Shown here: piece by piece, positions 11,781-23,488 of the stretch
Layout: the number at the start of each line of letters is the position of its first letter
Numbering within the stretch: the first letter of the stretch is position 1
NCBI RefSeq assembly: GCF_000337895.1
Contig: NZ_AOMA01000011.1
Location: forward strand, 566-46,835
Direction: 5' to 3'
Source of the DNA: Halobiforma nitratireducens JCM 10879
Lineage (GTDB): Archaea > Halobacteriota > Halobacteria > Halobacteriales > Natrialbaceae
Length of the DNA: 46,270 nt
Notes under the pieces: model-generated
The model's database searches: none
What the model was told of the DNA's origin: nothing
What the model saw: the letters and a program-made list of their open reading frames with translations, nothing else
Position numbers and translations under genes: made by a program

Positions 11781-12096
11781 CGCGGACCTGACGGATTCCG
11801 AACATTCTCGACAGCAATCAGGGATTTTGACGTAACGTTTTTCTAGTTATATACTTATTCTGCCGTTCTTATAAGGGAGTTTATTTTTTGACCGGTGGTA
11901 ACTGACGACGATAATTGTGCAACCACCACACAACGTCGCCGAGGCAGTCGGTTTCGATCATCCGTGCTGTAGTGGTTGAACACACCCGTCTAACAGAGGT
12001 GACTCTTCAGAATACGTTACAGCATATACATAATATAATGGACTCATGGCCGAAGGTTTATTGTAGTACGTCATAGTTATGCGCCCGAGTTTAGGA
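11781..12096 (+). other. AT-rich intergenic region with inverted repeat
   Basis: This 316-bp gap is far richer in A/T than the flanking genes, with runs such as ttttctagttatatac and catatacataatataatg. It contains an 11-bp inverted repeat with one mismatch (11920-11930 and 11968-11978, spacer 37 nt). No open reading frame of coding character is seen. The 3' end (about 12055-12064) supplies a TATA-like box for the next gene. Confidence 0.5.
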
Positions 12097-15000
12097 ATGT
12101 CAGTCGCAAGCGAGATTCACCAGAGCTTATATCGGCTCTACGAGCACTACGTTGGGGAACCGGACTCGGGGAAGGACGTATACGGCTACTGGCTGTTCAT
12201 TCTCGGCTACATCATCGGTGCCGCGGGGATCGTCGCGTTCATCATCGGCTACGGTGGCAGCATCGCCGAGGAGATGCTGATCCGCATCTCCGGCGTCGCG
12301 GCGTCTACCGGACTCGCGCTCTGTCTGTTCGGGATCGGACTGATGCTCCCGATGCGAAAGCGCGGGGTTCAGGCGAGCGTGGTCGGGCTGTTGGTTTCGT
12401 TGGTCGGTGTCGTACTGTACGGGTACGTGTACCCGAGTGACTGGCGTCATCGGGGGGCTGGATACGACGTGGAAGTGATCGCGGTCTATGCCGCAGGAAT
12501 CGCGATCATCGCGGGCGTTGCGGCGCTCGTTCCCGTCCTTACGGGGCGGAAAGGGATGTTCGTCGAGGAAGAAGGAACGAGCGAGGACCCGCCGATCCTC
12601 ACCGGCGACGCGCTCACGGACGCGCAGTTCGCCGTCTTCCGGGACGAGCACGGCGATTGGAAGTGGAACGTGCTTCACCGCGAGGCGCTTGCAACGAGCA
12701 ACGATAGCGCGGTCACGCGCCCGGAGGCTCGCGAGGGAATCGAACGAGTCAAGTCCCAGATCAGTTCGGCCGGGCTGATGGAGCTGACGACCTCGGCGTT
12801 CCGACTGTACGAGGATCGAGACGGGACCTGGCAGTGGACGCTCGCACGCGACGACGGGAGCGTCGTCGCTAACTGTGGGCGTGAGTTCGACCGCCGGGAC
12901 GGTGCCGAAAAGTCAGTGAGCTTCCTGAAAGATCGTGGCCCCGAGGCCGACGTCATCGAGATCGAGGGTGCCGCGTTCACCTACGCCGAGGAACGTGGCA
13001 AGTGGTACTGGCAACTGGTCGACGACGATCACAACCAGCTCGCTGGCCACGAATCCGGGTTCACCGATCAGGACGCTGCGGAGTCGGCGGCCCGAACCTT
13101 CGCCGAACGAGTCGACGACGCGCGACTGCTCGACATCGAGCATCTGGGCGTCGAACTCTACGAGGAGGACGCCGATCAGTGGACCTGGCGGTTCGTCGAC
13201 GACGCGGACGACATCATCGCGGACGCCGTCGCCAGCTACGACAGTCGACGCGAGGCCGAGGACGCAGCGGACGCGTTGCTTCCCGGTTTCGAGTCGGCGT
13301 CGGTAACCGTCGCCGGGGAGCCGACTTACGAGCTGTACGAGTCGGGCGAACACTGGCACTGGCGGCTCGTCGACGCCGGCGAGGATATCGTCGCCCGCGG
13401 ACCTGACGGCGTAGTGAATCACGATCGGATCGAGTGGGAGACGAAACAGTTCGACGCGAGCGCGAGCGACGCCGACGTCATCGAGATCGACGAGGCGGAG
13501 TACGAAGTGTACCCATCGGCGGCTGCCGGTGGAACCGGGGACGACTCGGACGACCTGCCGGCACGAGTCGAGGAACCTGCAGCGACCGACGGTGGGACCG
13601 AAGTTTCCTTCGACGAGGACGAGGCCGCCGATGGGCGCGACTGGCACTGGCGGCTCGTCACCGAAGACCGCGAGGTCGTCGCGGCAAGCACCGAACCTCA
13701 CACCGACTCCGAAGCGGCTGCCGCCGCGATCGAGCGGGTCCGCGAGCAGGCGAGTGAAGCCGACCTGATCGAGTTCGAACACGCCGCGTTCCAGGTCTAC
13801 GAGGCCGACTCCGGCGAGTGGCGCTGGCGGCTCATCGACGAAGACGGCAACGTCCTGGCCGACAGCGGCGAGGAGCACACGACCCGCAGCGAAGCCGCCG
13901 AGGCGATGATGACGCTGAAAGAGCAGGCCCCCGATGCCGAACTGCTCGAGATCGACACCGCCGCGTTCGAACTGTTCGTCAACGAGGACGACGAGTGGGG
14001 CTGGCGGCTCATCGACGAGGCCGGAAAGCTGGTCGCGGAAGACCCGTCGACCCATCCGACCCGCGGGGCCGCTCGCGACGCGATGAACCGTCTGCTCGAC
14101 CACCTCGATTCCGACGTGCGAACGATGGATCGGGCCGCGTTCCAGACGTACGCCGCCGAGGACTGGCACTGGCGGTTCGTCCTGCCATCCGGCGACATCG
14201 TCGCAGTCGACGACGAGTCGTATCCGACGCGGGACGCGCTGGTCGACGACCTCGAGTCGATCCGGCGGGACGCGACCGACGCACACCGTTCGACGATCGG
14301 CGACGCCACGGTTCAGCTCTACCGTAACGGCGACTGGACGTGGCGGCTCCTCGATCGGGACCGCGAGGAGATCGCGGACGCGACGGTTACCTACGAGGAC
14401 CGCGAGGCCGCGGTCGCACACGTCGACGACTGTCAGGCCCACGCCGCCGAAGCACCGATCTTCACCATCGAGGACGCGGCGATCCGCCTCGACGAAAGCG
14501 AAGGCAGCTGGCGCTGGGAACTGGTCGACGACGAGCGGACGGTACTCGCACACGGCGAGACCGAGGCCGACAGCAAGGACGCGGCGATCGATCGGATCGA
14601 CGAGGTCAAGAAACTCGCTCCGATGGCCGGCCGCGTCGACTTCGATGTCGCCTCGTTCGAACTCGTTGCCGACGAGGACGACCGCTGGCGCTGGCGGCTG
14701 ATCGACGAGGACGGGTACCCCGTCGCGAGTGGGACCGAAACCTACGACTCGAGCGAGGCCGCCCGCTCGGCCTTGGACGACGCCCGCGAGTTGATCGAGC
14801 GTGCGAGTATCCTCGAGATCGACAGCGTCTCGTTCGAGCTCCACACCGACGAGGACGGCTGGGTGTGGCGGCTGGTCGACGAGTTCGGCTCGACGATGGC
14901 CGAGAGTACCCAGACCTACGAGAACCGTACCGAGGCTCGCGAGGCGATGAACGCGGTGAAGTCTCACGCGCCCGACGGCTGGATCACGTTCACCGAGTAA
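12097..15000 (+). CDS. Membrane-anchored protein with 13 DUF1508/YegP-like repeats
   Basis: A 967-aa protein. Four transmembrane segments occupy about residues 27-155, starting with Y-W-L-F-I-L-G-Y. From about residue 188 to 922 there are 13 tandem repeats spaced about 60 residues apart, each with a W-x-W core followed by R-L-V/I-D-x-x-G/D, an A-x-S turn and a Glu/Ala-rich helix. The pattern matches the DUF1508 (YegP) beta-hairpin/helix motif, which usually occurs in one or two copies. Repeat 6 has a Gly/Asp/Glu-rich insertion of about 30 residues. Start 12097 is chosen because the conserved-looking helix begins there; an ATG at 12079 is possible. It separates the two CoA genes. The repeats probably face the cytoplasm or cell surface as a multivalent binding array; the ligand is unknown. 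Confidence 0.8.
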   Translation: MSVASEIHQSLYRLYEHYVGEPDSGKDVYGYWLFILGYIIGAAGIVAFIIGYGGSIAEEMLIRISGVAASTGLALCLFGIGLMLPMRKRGVQASVVGLLVSLVGVVLYGYVYPSDWRHRGAGYDVEVIAVYAAGIAIIAGVAALVPVLTGRKGMFVEEEGTSEDPPILTGDALTDAQFAVFRDEHGDWKWNVLHREALATSNDSAVTRPEAREGIERVKSQISSAGLMELTTSAFRLYEDRDGTWQWTLARDDGSVVANCGREFDRRDGAEKSVSFLKDRGPEADVIEIEGAAFTYAEERGKWYWQLVDDDHNQLAGHESGFTDQDAAESAARTFAERVDDARLLDIEHLGVELYEEDADQWTWRFVDDADDIIADAVASYDSRREAEDAADALLPGFESASVTVAGEPTYELYESGEHWHWRLVDAGEDIVARGPDGVVNHDRIEWETKQFDASASDADVIEIDEAEYEVYPSAAAGGTGDDSDDLPARVEEPAATDGGTEVSFDEDEAADGRDWHWRLVTEDREVVAASTEPHTDSEAAAAAIERVREQASEADLIEFEHAAFQVYEADSGEWRWRLIDEDGNVLADSGEEHTTRSEAAEAMMTLKEQAPDAELLEIDTAAFELFVNEDDEWGWRLIDEAGKLVAEDPSTHPTRGAARDAMNRLLDHLDSDVRTMDRAAFQTYAAEDWHWRFVLPSGDIVAVDDESYPTRDALVDDLESIRRDATDAHRSTIGDATVQLYRNGDWTWRLLDRDREEIADATVTYEDREAAVAHVDDCQAHAAEAPIFTIEDAAIRLDESEGSWRWELVDDERTVLAHGETEADSKDAAIDRIDEVKKLAPMAGRVDFDVASFELVADEDDRWRWRLIDEDGYPVASGTETYDSSEAARSALDDARELIERASILEIDSVSFELHTDEDGWVWRLVDEFGSTMAESTQTYENRTEAREAMNAVKSHAPDGWITFTE

Positions 15001-16640: not shown

Positions 16641-17660
16641 ATGCCAGAACAAACAAACCTCGAGTGTGTTTCGTGTGACACCTCGTTCGAACCGGGACCG
16701 AACGGCGGCTTTTGCCCGAGCTGTGACACGCCGCACCCGGACTACGCGGGTGGCGACGGAGATGGGGGCGAGGAAACGACTGAAGACGACTCCGAGTCGG
16801 CCGGTGAGGACGAACCCGAGGACGTAGTCGACGAAGCGGAAACGGACGAGAGCCAGGTCGACGACGACTCCGGGTCGGACGAACAGGAGGAACCGGCCGA
16901 GGAAAGTGAGTCGGACGACGAGTCCGTCGACGACGAACCCGAAGAAGGGGCCGCCGAACCGGAACCGGAACCGGAACCGGAGACGGAGGAAGACGACGCT
17001 GGCGAAGACCAACTGGAAGAAACCACCGACGAACCCGCCGGAGACGAGAGCGGGGTCGACGGCGACTCCGACACGGACCAGGCTGGCGAACCAGCGACAG
17101 TCGAGGACGACTCCGCGGCCGACGAAGACGCCGACGAAACCTGTCACGCGTGTGGCGCGGCGGTCGACGCGTCGATGGCGTTCTGCCCCGAGTGTGGAGC
17201 CGAACTCGAGGACGACGACGAGTCGGCGCTCACTGCCTGTCCGAGCTGTGAAAACGCGGTCGACGACGAGTCGTACTGTCCCAGCTGTGGGCTGCATCTC
17301 GACCCGATCCGGGAAGGCGAGGAGTCCGCCGAGAGTGTGTCTACGCCGGACGTTCCCGAGGAAGCCACGCTCGTCATCAACGGCGAGGAGTACACCTTCG
17401 GCGACGGCGACACGTTCGGCCGGCAGGACGGGGAGTGGCTCGAGGACCTCGTCGAAGCGAGCGGTGGTCGCGACGAGGTGACCTACGTCTCGAGCGAACA
17501 CCTCGAGTTCGCCGTCGAGGACGACGGCATCTACGTGGTCGACGTCAGTACGAACGGGACCAAACACAACGGAACGGAGATCGACGGCGCGTCGGCGAAA
17601 CTCGAGGACGGAGACACGCTCGAACTCGCCGACCGTGCGGAACTCGAAGTGACCCTCTAG
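16641..17660 (+). CDS. Zinc-ribbon and FHA domain protein
   Basis: A 339-aa protein. An N-terminal zinc ribbon (C-V-S-C and C-P-S-C, about residues 9-35) is followed by about 130 residues of disordered Asp/Glu-rich sequence including an E-P repeat, then two more zinc ribbons (C-H-A-C/C-P-E-C and C-P-S-C/C-P-S-C, about residues 170-215). A C-terminal FHA phosphothreonine-binding domain follows, with F-G-R, S-S-E-H-L and S-T-N-G-T (about residues 235-335). All FHA phosphopeptide-contact positions are present. Start 16641 is supported by the TATA-like box; the ATG at 16575 lies inside the promoter. It is the first gene of a co-directional set with a vWA protein, a kinase and a phosphatase, and likely reads a phosphorylated partner. 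The partner is unknown. Confidence 0.85.
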   Translation: MPEQTNLECVSCDTSFEPGPNGGFCPSCDTPHPDYAGGDGDGGEETTEDDSESAGEDEPEDVVDEAETDESQVDDDSGSDEQEEPAEESESDDESVDDEPEEGAAEPEPEPEPETEEDDAGEDQLEETTDEPAGDESGVDGDSDTDQAGEPATVEDDSAADEDADETCHACGAAVDASMAFCPECGAELEDDDESALTACPSCENAVDDESYCPSCGLHLDPIREGEESAESVSTPDVPEEATLVINGEEYTFGDGDTFGRQDGEWLEDLVEASGGRDEVTYVSSEHLEFAVEDDGIYVVDVSTNGTKHNGTEIDGASAKLEDGDTLELADRAELEVTL

Positions 17661-17853
17661 GAGACGAGGGGGCTGGACCGGACCGGACACGCGGTCCGAC
17701 TCCGACCACTGGCAACTCGATGCGGTTGGCGGGCGGCGAGTGGCGAGTGGCGAGCCGTACGGACCGGGAGCAGTCCGTCGGCCGTTCGGTCCCGTTCCGC
17801 TGTATCGCACAGTCACTCGAATCGGACGACGAACACACGACCCAACTGATCAC

Positions 17854-19056
17854 ATGACGACGACAATCTCACAGACGGTAAACAGGCCGTACGTACCCGA
17901 ACAAGGAGGCGGCATCTCCTGCGAGTTCGTCATCGAGCCGGAGGGAAGCGACGAGACTGCCGAACGCCACATCTCGATGTGCGTCGACAGCAGCGGCTCG
18001 ATGGGCTACGGGAAGATGCGCCAGGTCCGCGACGCGGCGGAGCTGGTCTTTGGCCTGCTGAACGACGACGACTATCTGAGCATCGTGACCTTCGACAACG
18101 AAGTCGAAGTGGTAATGGACGCGACCCGCTGGGGCGATATCGACCGCGAGGAAGTCCAGGAGCGTCTGGATGCAGTCGATACCCGGGGTGGCACCGACAT
18201 CTACGCCGGCGTCGAGACCGCAAAGAAGACGCTGCGAGAACTCCCCGAGGGCAACCAGATATCGAAGCGAATCCTGCTGCTGTCGGACGGCCGGGACCTC
18301 AATCGAAAGTCACCGGAGTTCGAGCCACTGGCGAAGGCAGTCGCCGATGGAGGCATCTCCATCTATTCTGCGGGTATCGGGACCAACTACGATCAGGACA
18401 TCATCCGCACGCTGGGCGAACACTCCCAGGGACGGTGGACCCACGTGGACAAACCGGTCGACATCAGGTCCTTCTTCGGCGACGTCGTCGAGGAGGCCTC
18501 GACCGTGGTCGCGAACAACCCGCGGCTGGTGATCGATCCGATCCCCGGCTGTGAAATCGCGGAAGCGTACCGGCGTCGGCCACAGGTCCAGCAGGTCGAC
18601 CTCGAGTACGACGGTGACTCCGTCGTCGTTCGACTGCCGGACCTCCAGAACCACGAAAACCAGAAGATCGTCCTGAAGATGGACGCGCCGGGTCACGACG
18701 TCGGAACGACGGAAGCGATCGCCGACGTCGAGCTACAGGGACTCTCCGAGACCGTCTCGACGGCCGTCGAGGTCAGTTACACCGACGACGAGGAGAAACT
18801 CGCCCAGAAGCAATCCGACACGTTCCTCGCTTACCGCGACACGAAGATTCGGAGCCAACTCGCACAGGCCGACTCGGAAGACGACCTCGAGGAGGTCAAA
18901 GAGCTGATCGACGAGACCGAGATCATCACCGAAGACACGTCGGTCGTCGACGACCTGCGACAGGACGTGACCCGGATCGAAGGTGGCGACGAGGAGAAAG
19001 TCCGCAAGGTACAGGAGAACACGACAGTCGTCTACGACGGCAGTCGCTTCGACTGA
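17854..19056 (+). CDS. von Willebrand factor A domain protein with intact MIDAS
   Basis: A 400-aa cytoplasmic vWA protein without a signal peptide or membrane segment. The MIDAS metal site is complete: D-S-S-G-S-M at residues 45-50, a Thr in R-G-G-T-D-I-Y, and an Asp in L-L-S-D-G-R-D. After the vWA fold (about 35-220) there is a beta-rich domain and a charged helical C-terminus (about 300-400). Start 17854 is chosen because protein-like sequence begins there; an in-frame ATG at 17740 adds 38 Arg/Pro-rich residues. It lies 193 bp after the FHA protein and 70 bp before the kinase. In bacterial vWA-kinase-phosphatase triads (TerY type) the vWA member is the metal-dependent adaptor; the same role is inferred here. 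Confidence 0.88.
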   Translation: MTTTISQTVNRPYVPEQGGGISCEFVIEPEGSDETAERHISMCVDSSGSMGYGKMRQVRDAAELVFGLLNDDDYLSIVTFDNEVEVVMDATRWGDIDREEVQERLDAVDTRGGTDIYAGVETAKKTLRELPEGNQISKRILLLSDGRDLNRKSPEFEPLAKAVADGGISIYSAGIGTNYDQDIIRTLGEHSQGRWTHVDKPVDIRSFFGDVVEEASTVVANNPRLVIDPIPGCEIAEAYRRRPQVQQVDLEYDGDSVVVRLPDLQNHENQKIVLKMDAPGHDVGTTEAIADVELQGLSETVSTAVEVSYTDDEEKLAQKQSDTFLAYRDTKIRSQLAQADSEDDLEEVKELIDETEIITEDTSVVDDLRQDVTRIEGGDEEKVRKVQENTTVVYDGSRFD

Positions 19057-19126
19057 CGATGCGCTCCCGACAGCATCGAACCGGTCGGTCGAACGAACGT
19101 CGACGTGAGACGGCCCAGTTCGTCAC

Positions 19127-20401
19127 ATGACCGAGTGGGAAACCGGAACCACACTCGCGGATCGGTACACCCTCCGCGAGGAACTCGGCAAAGGCGGGTT
19201 CGGCGTCGTCTGGGCGGCGAAAGACAGCGATCGAGACCGACTCGTCGCGCTGAAACACCCCAACTACGGCGGCCAGGCACCCGACGACCTCGTCGACAAG
19301 TACTTCGAGCGCGAGCGGGACGTCCTCGAGGACATCCGTGAGGCAGGGGGCCATCCGAACATCATGGCCTATCACGGCCAGGCGCGTGCGAACGGGACGG
19401 CGTTTCTGGACATCGAGTTGATCGACGGTGACGAACTCGGTGCAGTCGTCGAGAACGAGGATCCGATCGGTGATCCCGACGAAGTTCGTGAGATCGGTAT
19501 CGGAATCTGTGACGCGATTTCGTTCCTGCACGATCACGACATCATCTACCGGGACCTCAAACCCGACAACATCATGATTGACGGCGCTCGCGAGCCGAAG
19601 ATCATCGACTTCACCACGGCCAAGGGGTTCGTCCCCGAACGGGGCGGGCCCCAGTTTACGACCGGTGAGGGCGAGAGTTCCTCTTCGGGCGGCGATTCGA
19701 CCGTCCCTGGTGAGTTCAAACCGCCGGAACTGAACCGTGGCTCAGAACAGCGACAGGGGCCCTGGAGCGACGTCTACTCGATCGGGAAGATTCTCTGTTA
19801 CCTCCTCGTCGGCTGGGTCCCGAAGGATCACGGCGTTTCGCCGGCGGAGTTTGGCGTCGAGAGCGACGACTACCTGAACGAAATCGTCGAGACGGCGACC
19901 CAACACGACCGGTCGGATCGGTACCCGAACGCGTCGGTGTTACGGCGCGCCCTGGAGGACCGGGACGCGACGATGCCGACCCAGGCGGCGATCACCTGGC
20001 TCGGCCGCGACGAACAGTGGACGATCAGCCCCGGAGACACTATCGGACGGCGGACCGAAGACGGTCCGCGGCCGTCGCTGATGCTCTCTGACGACCGGCA
20101 CAAGGCACTATCGGCAGTCCACTGCCGGTTCGACGTGGACGACGACGGCAACTGGGCCGTGATCGACACCAGCCTCAACGGGACCTACATCAGCAAACAC
20201 GACGAACGGAACTGGCGCTTCCTGCTCTCGGAAGCCGGACAACAGCGCCAGCAACAGGCCGGCGAGTCGGTCCCCGACGACGTCGAGACTCGGGCCCGTC
20301 TGGAAGCCGGCGACACCATCGCACTGGTCAGTCCGAGCTATCCGGAGCGATTCTACTTCCAGTTTAGCACGCAACACACAGATACCAATGGAACACGCTA
20401 G
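19127..20401 (+). CDS. Hanks-type Ser/Thr protein kinase with C-terminal FHA domain
   Basis: A 424-aa soluble kinase. The glycine loop G-K-G-G-F-G-V-V starts at residue 21, the ATP lysine is K43, and the catalytic loop is Y-R-D-L-K-P-D-N with Asp143. The metal-binding motif is D-F-T at 161-163 rather than D-F-G, and P-P-E-L replaces A-P-E. The kinase fold ends near residue 285. A canonical FHA domain follows (about 298-410: I-G-R-R, L-S-A-V-H-C-R-F, S-L-N-G-T-Y). There is no transmembrane segment or PASTA repeat, so it is not a surface receptor. The last 14 bp overlap the phosphatase gene, suggesting translational coupling. Bacterial-style kinases of this kind are uncommon in archaea. Confidence 0.92.
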   Translation: MTEWETGTTLADRYTLREELGKGGFGVVWAAKDSDRDRLVALKHPNYGGQAPDDLVDKYFERERDVLEDIREAGGHPNIMAYHGQARANGTAFLDIELIDGDELGAVVENEDPIGDPDEVREIGIGICDAISFLHDHDIIYRDLKPDNIMIDGAREPKIIDFTTAKGFVPERGGPQFTTGEGESSSSGGDSTVPGEFKPPELNRGSEQRQGPWSDVYSIGKILCYLLVGWVPKDHGVSPAEFGVESDDYLNEIVETATQHDRSDRYPNASVLRRALEDRDATMPTQAAITWLGRDEQWTISPGDTIGRRTEDGPRPSLMLSDDRHKALSAVHCRFDVDDDGNWAVIDTSLNGTYISKHDERNWRFLLSEAGQQRQQQAGESVPDDVETRARLEAGDTIALVSPSYPERFYFQFSTQHTDTNGTR

Positions 20402-22025
20402 TACAGTCGACATCGGCGAACGAAAACGACGGAGTGGCGGCATCAACGAGGACAGTATCGCGACGGCGGTGCTCGAGAACCACCACCGATCGGAGAGCCG
20501 ACCGGTGGGTATCTTCGTTCTCGGTGACGGCGTCGGCGGCGAAGCGAGCGGGGACGTCGCTTCCTTCCTGGCGACGACCGTGGTCCGCAAGCGACTCACG
20601 GATACACTGCTGGGCGACGGGACCGACCTGCTGGAGCGATTCGAGATCGACGCCTACGACGGCCCGCCGCCGACCGCCGGGGAACGCACTGGGTCCGCGC
20701 TGTCGCCCCGGCGCATCCGAACGGCCATCCAGGAGGCGGTCGACGACGCCCACCAGCAGATTCAGGAGTACGCCCGCGAAATCGACGGACGACCCGCGAC
20801 CACGCTCGTCGTCGGCGTCTACGTCGACGGCCGACTCCACTACGGCTGGGTCGGTGACAGCCGTCTCTACCTCGTCAACGCACGCCACGAGGAGATTCAG
20901 CAGCTCACGACGGATCATGCAGTCACCAACGAGATGCTCGAGCGAGGCGAAATCGACGACGAGGTCGGTGCGCGCGTCCACAGGCGGAACACGGCGATCA
21001 CGAGCGCCATCGGCGGCTCGCCACACGGGAAGCCGACGGTCGACGTCGAGTTCGGCTCCGTCGATGTCTACCAGGACGATATCTTCCTGTTGACCAGTGA
21101 CGGTCTGATCGACGCCTATCCCGACGTCGCGCCCCTTCGTGCCGAGTACGAACAGGCCGACGATGCGGACACAGACGACGTCCGCGAAGAGATCCTCGAG
21201 ACCCTGGTCACCGACGACGAGATCAGGGATATCGTCCTCGAGGCCGCGGACCTCCAGGCGGGCGTCGAGGAACTGATCGCGTTTGCCAACGACCGGGGCG
21301 GGAAAGACAACCTCTCGGTCGCGCTCGCTCGGGACCCCGGCGCTGCCCCCACACCGGAGACGATCGCGGACAGGCCCTCCGCGACCGAACCCAACGACCT
21401 GACCGACCAGGAGACGGTCATCGAGACGCCGGAATCGGACCTCGACTCCGGGGCTGGAGACGATTCCGATCCGGTATCGAACCGGACCGCGACCGAGCCC
21501 CACGAGTCGGCGTCGTCCCCCGATGTCGTCTCGGCGACCGGGCCGGAACTGGCTACTGCAGCGATCAAGATCGCGGGGACGGACACGATCTACGAGATCG
21601 TCGACGGCGTCACGATCGGCCGAGACGACGACGAGGCCGAGGGTGCTGGACCGAACATCTGTCTCGTCGTCGAAGACGACACCGTCGAACGACACCACGC
21701 CCGAGTCGAACGCAACGAGGACGGCGACTGGTGGCTCCGCGATACCAGCGACGCCGGCACGTTCGTGGAGGACGACGACGAGTGGATTCGTCTCTGCTCG
21801 ACGGACGAGACGAGCGACGACGAGACGCACGACTCCGACGACGGGTTCGTCGATGACGGCCCCGAAGCACACCGGCTTCGAGACGGCACGACGTTCACGC
21901 TCGAGGACCCACGGGAGACGGATCCGATCGCGTTTCGTTTCTTCGGCGGCGTCGAACTGGCCCAGGGGTCGACGGACGAAGACGCAGCGACGAACGACGG
22001 GTTCCTCGACCGGTTCCGCTCGTAG
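20388..22025 (+). CDS. PP2C-type protein phosphatase with C-terminal FHA-like domain
   Basis: A 545-aa protein. The PP2C fold (about residues 1-315) has all metal ligands: G-I-N-E-D at 18-22, G-D-G-V-G-G with Asp47, W-V-G-D-S-R, L-T-S-D-G-L, and G-G-K-D-N-L. An acidic linker of about 75 residues leads to an FHA-like domain (about 395-515) with I-G-R, V-E-R-H-H-A-R-V and D-T-S-D-A-G-T-F; the Asn normally before Gly-Thr is Ala, so phosphopeptide binding may be weak. It overlaps the kinase gene by 14 bp, so the pair is probably made together and opposes one another on the same targets. It is convergent with the membrane protein gene, 71 bp away. Confidence 0.92.
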   Translation: MEHASTVDIGERKRRSGGINEDSIATAVLENHHRSESRPVGIFVLGDGVGGEASGDVASFLATTVVRKRLTDTLLGDGTDLLERFEIDAYDGPPPTAGERTGSALSPRRIRTAIQEAVDDAHQQIQEYAREIDGRPATTLVVGVYVDGRLHYGWVGDSRLYLVNARHEEIQQLTTDHAVTNEMLERGEIDDEVGARVHRRNTAITSAIGGSPHGKPTVDVEFGSVDVYQDDIFLLTSDGLIDAYPDVAPLRAEYEQADDADTDDVREEILETLVTDDEIRDIVLEAADLQAGVEELIAFANDRGGKDNLSVALARDPGAAPTPETIADRPSATEPNDLTDQETVIETPESDLDSGAGDDSDPVSNRTATEPHESASSPDVVSATGPELATAAIKIAGTDTIYEIVDGVTIGRDDDEAEGAGPNICLVVEDDTVERHHARVERNEDGDWWLRDTSDAGTFVEDDDEWIRLCSTDETSDDETHDSDDGFVDDGPEAHRLRDGTTFTLEDPRETDPIAFRFFGGVELAQGSTDEDAATNDGFLDRFRS

Positions 22026-22096
22026 TCGGGCCGGACGGTCGCCTCGGGGGAGTCCGCACAACTGGTTTCGACGGAAAATTCGGTGTTTGGCGACGG

Positions 22097-23488
22097 TTAG
22101 AGTTCACACCCACAGAGCGGGCAGAAGGTGTACGCGCCGTCGGACGGAATCTCCTCACCGCAATCGGGACACGCCTCCGCAGGATCGGCGTCCCCGTCGT
22201 ACTCGCCGAAGTCGTCGGCGAAGATACGCGTATCGGACGCGAACTCTTCGGTAGAGCCGACCTCGGCTGCCTCCTCCGTCTCTCCCGTCCCTCCCTGGCC
22301 GTGCGAGGCGGAGACGGCTGCCGGCTGGCTCTCGGTCCCCTCCTGTTTGTCCTGTTTGGATTCGCGCTCGTGGTCCGGCGGATCGCTGGTGTGCTCGCTC
22401 GAGTCGTCCTCGCGTTCACTATCACTATCACTATCACTATCACTATCACTATCACTATCACTATCACTATCACTATCACTATCACTATCACTATCACTAT
22501 CACTATCACTATCACTATCACTATCACTATCACTGTCGCTCGAGGCACTGTCGTTGGCGTCAGCGGATCGGCGCGAGGACGACCCGCGGTCGGAGGGGCT
22601 CGAGGGGACGACCGGCTGTTTCCGTCGCGACCGTCTGTTGACGCTCGCAGCACTGCTCGGCGACCGATCCGATGTCGTTGCAACGTTCCCGGACCCGTCT
22701 GTCGACCGCTGGGCCGCCGACTCGGACGCGCGAGTGTCGCCCTCGCCGCTTCGGATCGACGAGACGACGTTGGTGATTCGATCGCCGAGCGACGGGGAGT
22801 CCGACATTTCGCGGTCCGTCTGCAGTAGCGTGAGCCCGTAAACGACCGTCACCAGCAGCGGAACGGCGACGAGAAACGCCCGGTCGAACGGTATGCCGGT
22901 TTCGACGACGGCGGCGGGCAAGAGCTGCCTGAGCGACTCCACGCCCACGACGGAGTGGCCGCTCGCGAGGGCGGCGACGGCTGCGAGGGCGGGCAGTCCC
23001 GTGATCGCACCGACGAGCATGGACGCCTGGACCTGGCTCCCCTGCAGCGATCCGACGGCGATCGTTCGGAACGCGAGTGCGTGTGCCGCGACCACGACGA
23101 GGACGAACGCCCACAGCGGAAGCGCCAGCGACTGGGTCGTCGCCACCACGTAGCCGACTGGAACGACGATACCGACTGCCGGGACGGCAACCATCGATAG
23201 CGGGTCCACGTCCTCGAATCGTGACTCGAGGATGCGCCGGTGGCCGACCACCGCGAGCGCGCCCCCGGAGACGATCACGAGCCCAGTAACGATCGCCACG
23301 GCGATCCGTCCGACTTCGAGGATACTCGCGCTGGCCCCCGCGAGTTCGCCCACCGCCTGTACCATACTGTGAACGGCCGCACCGAGAAGCAGTACGGCCA
23401 CTGTCGCCAGTATCGAGAGGACGACGGCGGTCACCTCGAGGACGGCAAGAACGCCGTGGTCGTACGCCGATCTATTCAGCAATCCCAT
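22097..23488 (-). CDS. Polytopic membrane protein with long Ser-Asp repeat and C-terminal zinc ribbon
   Basis: A 463-aa protein. About six hydrophobic segments fill residues 10-225. A soluble tail follows: Ser-rich linker, about 20 Ser-Asp dipeptides encoded by a perfect hexanucleotide repeat (22417-22533), another acidic linker, and a terminal zinc ribbon (C-P-D-C-G and C-P-L-C-G, the last 20 residues). The ribbon resembles those in the FHA protein at 16641. Its start lies behind an AT-rich promoter (ttatatttg, about 23500 on the minus strand). It faces the vWA/kinase/phosphatase set and may be the membrane component or a substrate; the Ser-rich tail would be a natural kinase target. That link is inference. 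Confidence 0.75.
   Translation of the reverse strand: MGLLNRSAYDHGVLAVLEVTAVVLSILATVAVLLLGAAVHSMVQAVGELAGASASILEVGRIAVAIVTGLVIVSGGALAVVGHRRILESRFEDVDPLSMVAVPAVGIVVPVGYVVATTQSLALPLWAFVLVVVAAHALAFRTIAVGSLQGSQVQASMLVGAITGLPALAAVAALASGHSVVGVESLRQLLPAAVVETGIPFDRAFLVAVPLLVTVVYGLTLLQTDREMSDSPSLGDRITNVVSSIRSGEGDTRASESAAQRSTDGSGNVATTSDRSPSSAASVNRRSRRKQPVVPSSPSDRGSSSRRSADANDSASSDSDSDSDSDSDSDSDSDSDSDSDSDSDSDSDSDSDSDSDSEREDDSSEHTSDPPDHERESKQDKQEGTESQPAAVSASHGQGGTGETEEAAEVGSTEEFASDTRIFADDFGEYDGDADPAEACPDCGEEIPSDGAYTFCPLCGCEL
22417..22533 (-). repeat. Hexanucleotide tandem repeat encoding Ser-Asp
   Basis: About 19-20 copies of the unit agtgat (minus strand) run without interruption, an uncommon degree of purity. 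The unit is two codons, so copy-number change alters repeat length but keeps the frame. The codons agt/gat are A/T-rich compared with the tcg/gac used elsewhere, which marks recent expansion. Confidence 0.9.

Follow-up and report, generated by a model that had tools for sequence, protein, structure and literature searches.

A five-gene locus in Halobiforma nitratireducens

The haloarchaeon Halobiforma nitratireducens JCM 10879 carries five neighboring genes for a putative protein-phosphorylation system. They lie in a 46,270-nucleotide stretch of contig NZ_AOMA01000011.1 (positions 566 to 46,835 of the forward strand), referred to here as the window, in which all its coordinates are given. An earlier note on this DNA had described four co-directional genes and a convergent membrane protein gene; translations and Pfam matches bear out the five open reading frames. 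The first gene (16641..17660, + strand) encodes ZnFHA, a protein with an N-terminal zinc ribbon, a long acidic linker, a double zinc ribbon, and a C-terminal FHA domain (17370..17657, +) with R261, S285, H287, and N305. The second gene (17854..19056, +) encodes a vWA protein composed of a vWA domain with an intact metal-ion-dependent adhesion site (MIDAS), a beta-sandwich, and a helical bundle. Its most likely start is the ATG at 17854, which matches its relatives; a longer reading frame opens with a GTG at 17740. Its C-terminal tail contains TTVVYD (T390-D395; 19021..19038, +), a candidate phospho-site. The third gene (19127..20401, +) encodes a Hanks-type Ser/Thr kinase (PF00069, E value (E) 7e-31) with a C-terminal FHA domain (E 2e-7); no transmembrane segment was seen in this kinase. 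The fourth (20388..22025, +) encodes a PP2C phosphatase (E 1e-10), also with a C-terminal FHA domain (E 3e-9), and overlaps the kinase gene by 14 bp (20388-20401), exactly as the note had reported. The linker behind the PP2C domain holds the Thr motif DQETVI (T343; 21405..21422, +). The fifth gene (22097..23488, - strand) encodes MEM, which has N-terminal membrane helices, a disordered acidic and Ser-containing linker (residues 262-432), and a C-terminal zinc ribbon with C440, C443, C456, and C459 (22109..22171, -). The MEM motif TRIFADDF (T420-F427; 22208..22231, -) is a candidate phospho-site and FHA-docking site.

Active-site and binding residues were compared by alignment of relatives. The MIDAS residues D45, S47, S49, T114, and D145 are invariant in 30/30 vWA proteins, in agreement with the intact site described earlier. 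K43, the HRD aspartate D143, N148, and the DFG aspartate D161 are invariant in all 35 kinases, and the metal-binding aspartates D22, D47, D157, D238, and D307 are invariant in all 28 phosphatases. The FHA Gly/Arg and Asn residues are conserved in the kinase and ZnFHA proteins. The claim of three FHA domains holds for the window and does not extend to the relatives in general: an FHA domain was aligned in 10 of the 28 phosphatases, and most PP2C proteins of the Haloarculaceae stop soon after the catalytic domain.

Co-occurrence and gene order

Separate searches of 194 haloarchaeal genomes with the PP2C, vWA, and kinase gave strong matches to all three in the same 27 genomes, where the genes always lie side by side, vWA first, then the kinase, then PP2C. 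At that strength, a partial set of one or two was found in none of the 194 genomes. If genomes are taken as independent, two such genome sets would coincide completely with a probability of about 1e-33, a value that is raised by their relatedness. The operon is patchily distributed within haloarchaeal families, and one genome (G138) has two different whole copies. In the 20 kb examined around each of 28 module copies, the ZnFHA gene lies beside the vWA-kinase-PP2C genes in every case; it precedes vWA in the window's family and the two f4 genomes, and it follows PP2C in most others. The MEM gene, with its C-terminal zinc ribbon, is adjacent in 23 of the 28 copies, in opposite orientation (convergent or divergent) within the window's family and as the last co-directional gene in Haloarculaceae-type loci. 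In G041, MEM is encoded elsewhere (L095), unlinked to the module. The genes flanking the module differ between families. A scan of a second collection yielded 26 named haloarchaeal loci, from Halovivax, Natrinema, Haloarcula, Halomicroarcula, Halomicrobium, Salinibaculum, and metagenome-assembled genomes (MAGs), partly the same genomes as in the 194-genome sample; the triad was present in 26/26, ZnFHA in 24, and MEM in 21. The trees of the four soluble proteins are congruent (distance r 0.91-0.96), as those of any jointly inherited genes would be.

Because the components co-occur, remain adjacent while their flanks change, and have congruent trees, the data support the conclusion that the five genes form a co-inherited phospho-signaling module, MEM included. 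The earlier note had proposed such a module, with the membrane protein as a member, and had named rare co-occurrence or unrelated contexts as grounds for abandoning it; the pattern found is the opposite. The note had also taken such a system to be undescribed in haloarchaea as far as is known; literature searches, whose coverage left out most subscription journals, likewise found no haloarchaeal operon combining a kinase, PP2C, and FHA readers, nor the sequence tag described below.

A search of 295 genomes from the phylum found vWA relatives of full length in the window's order only. Among bacterial vWA relatives (L128-L181), none has kinase, PP2C, or FHA neighbors except L172, and no bacterial source was found. 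In L172 (2443-5644, +), a Cloacimonadota MAG contig, FHA, vWA, and PP2C genes are adjacent, perhaps as an independent bacterial cousin. A weaker vWA relative is present without kinase or PP2C in two haloarchaeal genomes, G030 and G033; this different vWA family adjoins an Hsp70/DnaK-like gene and has no kinase, PP2C, or FHA genes beside it (L028 8230-11409; L029 10043-13724). A second, diverged kinase-FHA gene was observed downstream of PP2C in L012, L013, L014, L015, and L016 and nearby in L019, L020, L126, and L127. One copy (L018 7282-8441, +) has two related neighboring genes directly upstream of vWA; the product of the first contains a bacterial PH domain (bPH_2).

The flanks in the window are ordinary, with genes for 4-phosphopantoate-beta-alanine ligase, a DUF7139/HVO_2922-repeat protein, and tyrosyl-tRNA synthetase, and the earlier remark that no Ter genes lie beside the module is confirmed. 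The repeat protein (12079-15000, +) has 973 residues, with a DUF7139 membrane part followed by a long DUF1508/HVO_2922 repeat array (8-12 matches). Scans for promoters and terminators, which rely on bacterial patterns, gave no result usable for an archaeon.

The vWA core, the MEM tail, and candidate clients

A vWA-family profile was searched against PDB sequences. The first match was ArnB of Sulfolobus acidocaldarius (8S05, E 1.3e-21), the next followed at 2e-13, and the ArnB paralogue vWA2/ArnE (5A8J) was matched at E 2.4e-11. In a second, weak stretch of the profile match, the C-terminal helical region was aligned. An AlphaFold model of the vWA protein had a predicted local distance difference test (pLDDT) score of 89 and a predicted template modeling (pTM) score of 0.87. 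A fold search with this model returned full-length matches to 4FX5, 8S05 (E 2e-25, template modeling (TM) score 0.74-0.78), and 5A8J, and poorer matches to Sec23/24. 4FX5 is a Catenulispora vWA protein, and a vWA protein from Catenulispora is named as one with the ArnB architecture (PMC12852372). As modeled, the vWA protein is thus of the ArnB three-domain fold (vWA, beta-sandwich, and helical bundle). ZnFHA has the layout of ArnA, with a zinc ribbon at the N-terminus, an FHA domain at the C-terminus, and a gene beside that of an ArnB-type vWA protein. Its only sequence match to ArnA was a weak one in the zinc ribbon (8S05 chain C, E 0.005); for the FHA part no link to ArnA was detected, and that part matched GarA and Rad53. 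The vWA protein has the structural features of ArnB; the likeness of ZnFHA to ArnA is one of layout, unproven by sequence.

In Sulfolobus, the ArnA zinc finger binds unphosphorylated ArnB; ArnC phosphorylates Thr residues in the ArnB helical bundle, at last T371-T375, and the ArnA FHA domain then binds tightly (PMC12852372). The same article mentions, in one sentence, structurally related products in Euryarchaeota such as Halorubrum (PMC12852372). ArnA and ArnB are often in a predicted operon (PMC4858521). The five-gene operon and its tag are described in neither of these passages. In the haloarchaeal vWA protein, T391 (of 400 residues) is conserved in 29/30 relatives, has an aliphatic residue at +2, and opens a disordered tail.

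In the alignment of MEM proteins, the linker is essentially unalignable save for T-x-[VI]-[FY] motifs, which are followed by the C-terminal ribbon. The motif is present in 36/36 linkers and occurs 54 times in total; shuffling of the linkers gives an expectation of 0.72. It usually lies 5-25 residues from a zinc ribbon; most Haloarculaceae have a second copy (GTRVFSPDE) far from the ribbon. The form in the window's family, T-x-I-F-x-x-D-F, matches the GarA phospho-motif T22-SVFRADF. Related Thr motifs without a ribbon occur in the vWA and PP2C tails, and DQETVI of the window PP2C is the counterpart of [DE]T-V-[IL] near the C-terminus of the Haloarculaceae phosphatases. No ZnFHA protein contains T-x-[VI]-[FY]. 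A profile of the motif-ribbon cassette gave matches below E 1e-8 in 13/16 genomes with the module and in 0/16 without it. Since tails of this kind were used to build the profile, there is some circularity in its positive matches, though not in the absence from module-free genomes. Among 30 zinc-ribbon matches examined in the H. nitratireducens genome, the C-terminal cassette was found in MEM only. The MEM tail gave chance-level matches only against PDB sequences, and a fold search with the MEM model (pTM 0.47) gave no match. The earlier note had pointed to a long Ser-rich MEM tail; the conserved element is the Thr motif with its following ribbon, not the Ser-rich sequence. Part of that sequence, a Ser-Asp run, is encoded by a perfect (TCACTA)19.8 microsatellite (22416..22534), which the sister genome (L010) lacks, so the run is not conserved. 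With this repeat inside a coding gene, the run is possibly length-variable.

Two genomes, G112 and G174 (of another family), encode unrelated proteins near the module that carry the motif beside a zinc ribbon. In ~25 kb, G174 has seven such proteins, of which three are PQQ propellers, one is a cold-shock protein, one is a TBP-domain protein, and two are of no recognized kind. G112 has two motif-plus-ribbon proteins; in addition, its double cold-shock protein has a TKIF motif at the end and no ribbon. In the TBP-domain protein and in a cold-shock protein, the motif is at the very C-terminus. The TBP-domain protein of G174 (L020 12363-13142, -) has a zinc ribbon and the C-terminal sequence NTQVYNPSE, lies directly upstream of ZnFHA, and is a possible transcriptional client. 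The occurrence of the motif beside a ribbon on unrelated neighbors suggests that the pair may be a portable client tag.

A proposed phosphorylation switch and its relatives

We consider that the module is probably, though by no means securely, a dedicated haloarchaeal protein-phosphorylation switch with an ArnA/ArnB-like core and a kinase and phosphatase of its own. Computation established which genes make up the set, that they are inherited together, that their active sites are intact, that the vWA protein has the ArnB fold, and that the Thr motifs are conserved; phosphorylation of the motifs by the kinase, FHA docking, and zinc-ribbon docking on the vWA protein are what we infer. The kinase would phosphorylate short Thr motifs: T-x-[VI]-[FY] in the MEM tail and those in the vWA C-terminal tail and in the linker of PP2C. 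The resulting phosphothreonines would be docking sites for the FHA domains of the kinase and ZnFHA and, in the window's family, for that of PP2C. Docking may gather a complex on the vWA protein as scaffold, held to the membrane via the MEM tail, which could be an anchor or a readout, and PP2C would dismantle it. A loose, unphosphorylated state is probably maintained by contacts of the vWA protein with the zinc ribbons of ZnFHA and tagged clients, comparable to the ArnA zinc finger on ArnB. If this is correct, haloarchaea possess, in self-contained form, a switch that has been studied to date in Sulfolobales, and they encode its writer, eraser, reader, and scaffold together with a defined candidate substrate.

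A wider proposal is that T-x-[VI]-[FY] beside a zinc ribbon is a portable address by which proteins with nothing else in common are assigned as clients to a single ArnA/ArnB-type kinase-phosphatase-FHA hub. We put this forward tentatively, as a possibility about which doubt slightly prevails. If true, a common tag could bring targets in the membrane, in RNA, and in transcription within reach of a single archaeal switch. To our knowledge, it would be the first common kinase-client tag proposed in archaea. As several of the carriers are Haloarcula and Natrinema species in culture, the way in which an ArnA/ArnB-type complex locates its kinase and clients can be tested.

Several observations weigh against the proposed switch. 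In sequence, the FHA domain of ZnFHA is at least as close to GarA and Rad53 as it is to ArnA. The DFG glycine of the kinase is Asn or Thr in all relatives (DF[N/T]), so that its activity is presumptive. In Sulfolobus, the genes for the kinases of the switch lie apart from it, and PP2A takes the place that PP2C has here. The motif expression was chosen after the sequences had been viewed and the aligned rows are related, so that its presence in every MEM linker and its enrichment are descriptive support and do not amount to an unbiased test. Between the two main families, no homology of the MEM membrane domains could be detected, which in turn points to the tail as the functional constant.

The Thr motif might instead serve zinc-ribbon tails in folding, metal loading, degradation, or targeting, with the operon acting on other substrates. 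Its usual closeness to a ribbon fits this explanation, which we regard as unlikely: the second copy in most Haloarculaceae is remote from the ribbon, the TBP-domain client and one cold-shock client have the motif at their very end, the vWA and PP2C tails carry related motifs with no ribbon, and the cassette, at the threshold used, was absent from the 16 module-free genomes. The operon could also be the haloarchaeal counterpart of the Sulfolobus archaellum network, with repression of motility or pilus genes as its output. The ArnB fold, the ArnA-like partner, and the tagged TBP-domain protein upstream of ZnFHA, which would suit a transcriptional output, speak for it; yet no archaellum or pilus genes were recognized in the window or the loci examined, the operon is missing from 167 of the 194 sampled haloarchaea, and ArnA-ArnB itself also affects metabolism and the DNA-damage response. 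This counterpart is somewhat less likely again.

The least likely of the three alternatives, and an improbable one, is a TerY-P-like triad of the stress or anti-phage kind to which FHA domains were added. The vWA protein of TerY systems is a single-domain protein. The same vWA, PP2C, and Ser/Thr kinase genes stand together in one operon, their presence among haloarchaea is patchy, and TerY-P triads are described as phosphorylation switches, with related modules acting as anti-phage systems (PMC11090510). The TerY-P kinase is defined, however, by a C-terminal zinc ribbon fusion, with an OB fold instead in related modules (PMC11090510), whereas the haloarchaeal kinase ends in an FHA domain. The vWA protein here is of the three-domain ArnB type, ZnFHA is a separate protein, and no Ter or restriction genes lie near the operon. 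PADLOC gave generic kinase models only, with none matched by the vWA protein or PP2C, and no recurrent defense genes were seen in the flanks examined around the copies.

Two further known systems come close to the preferred reading, a dedicated phosphorylation switch. The earlier note had compared the module with the TerY-type triad; by profile and fold match, the nearest relative of the core is instead the ArnA-ArnB switch of Sulfolobales (S. acidocaldarius; PDB 8S05, 5A8I, 5A8J; kinases ArnC/ArnD, phosphatase PP2A). Both have the three-domain vWA protein, a neighbor with an N-terminal zinc ribbon and a C-terminal FHA domain, and a conserved Thr where the helical part of the vWA protein ends. 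The haloarchaeal operon differs in holding a kinase-FHA protein, PP2C, and a tagged membrane protein; compared with ArnA, its ZnFHA carries additional ribbons as well as a long acidic linker. In the GarA/OdhI system of Actinobacteria, the short GarA motif (ETTS) is phosphorylated by Hanks kinases (PMC12321487). Its T-S-V-F-R-A-D-F has the same form as T-R-I-F-A-D-D-F of MEM, and an FHA reader and a PP2C-type eraser are shared; the GarA motif is on the FHA protein itself, whereas here the motifs are on MEM, the vWA tail, and other candidate clients.

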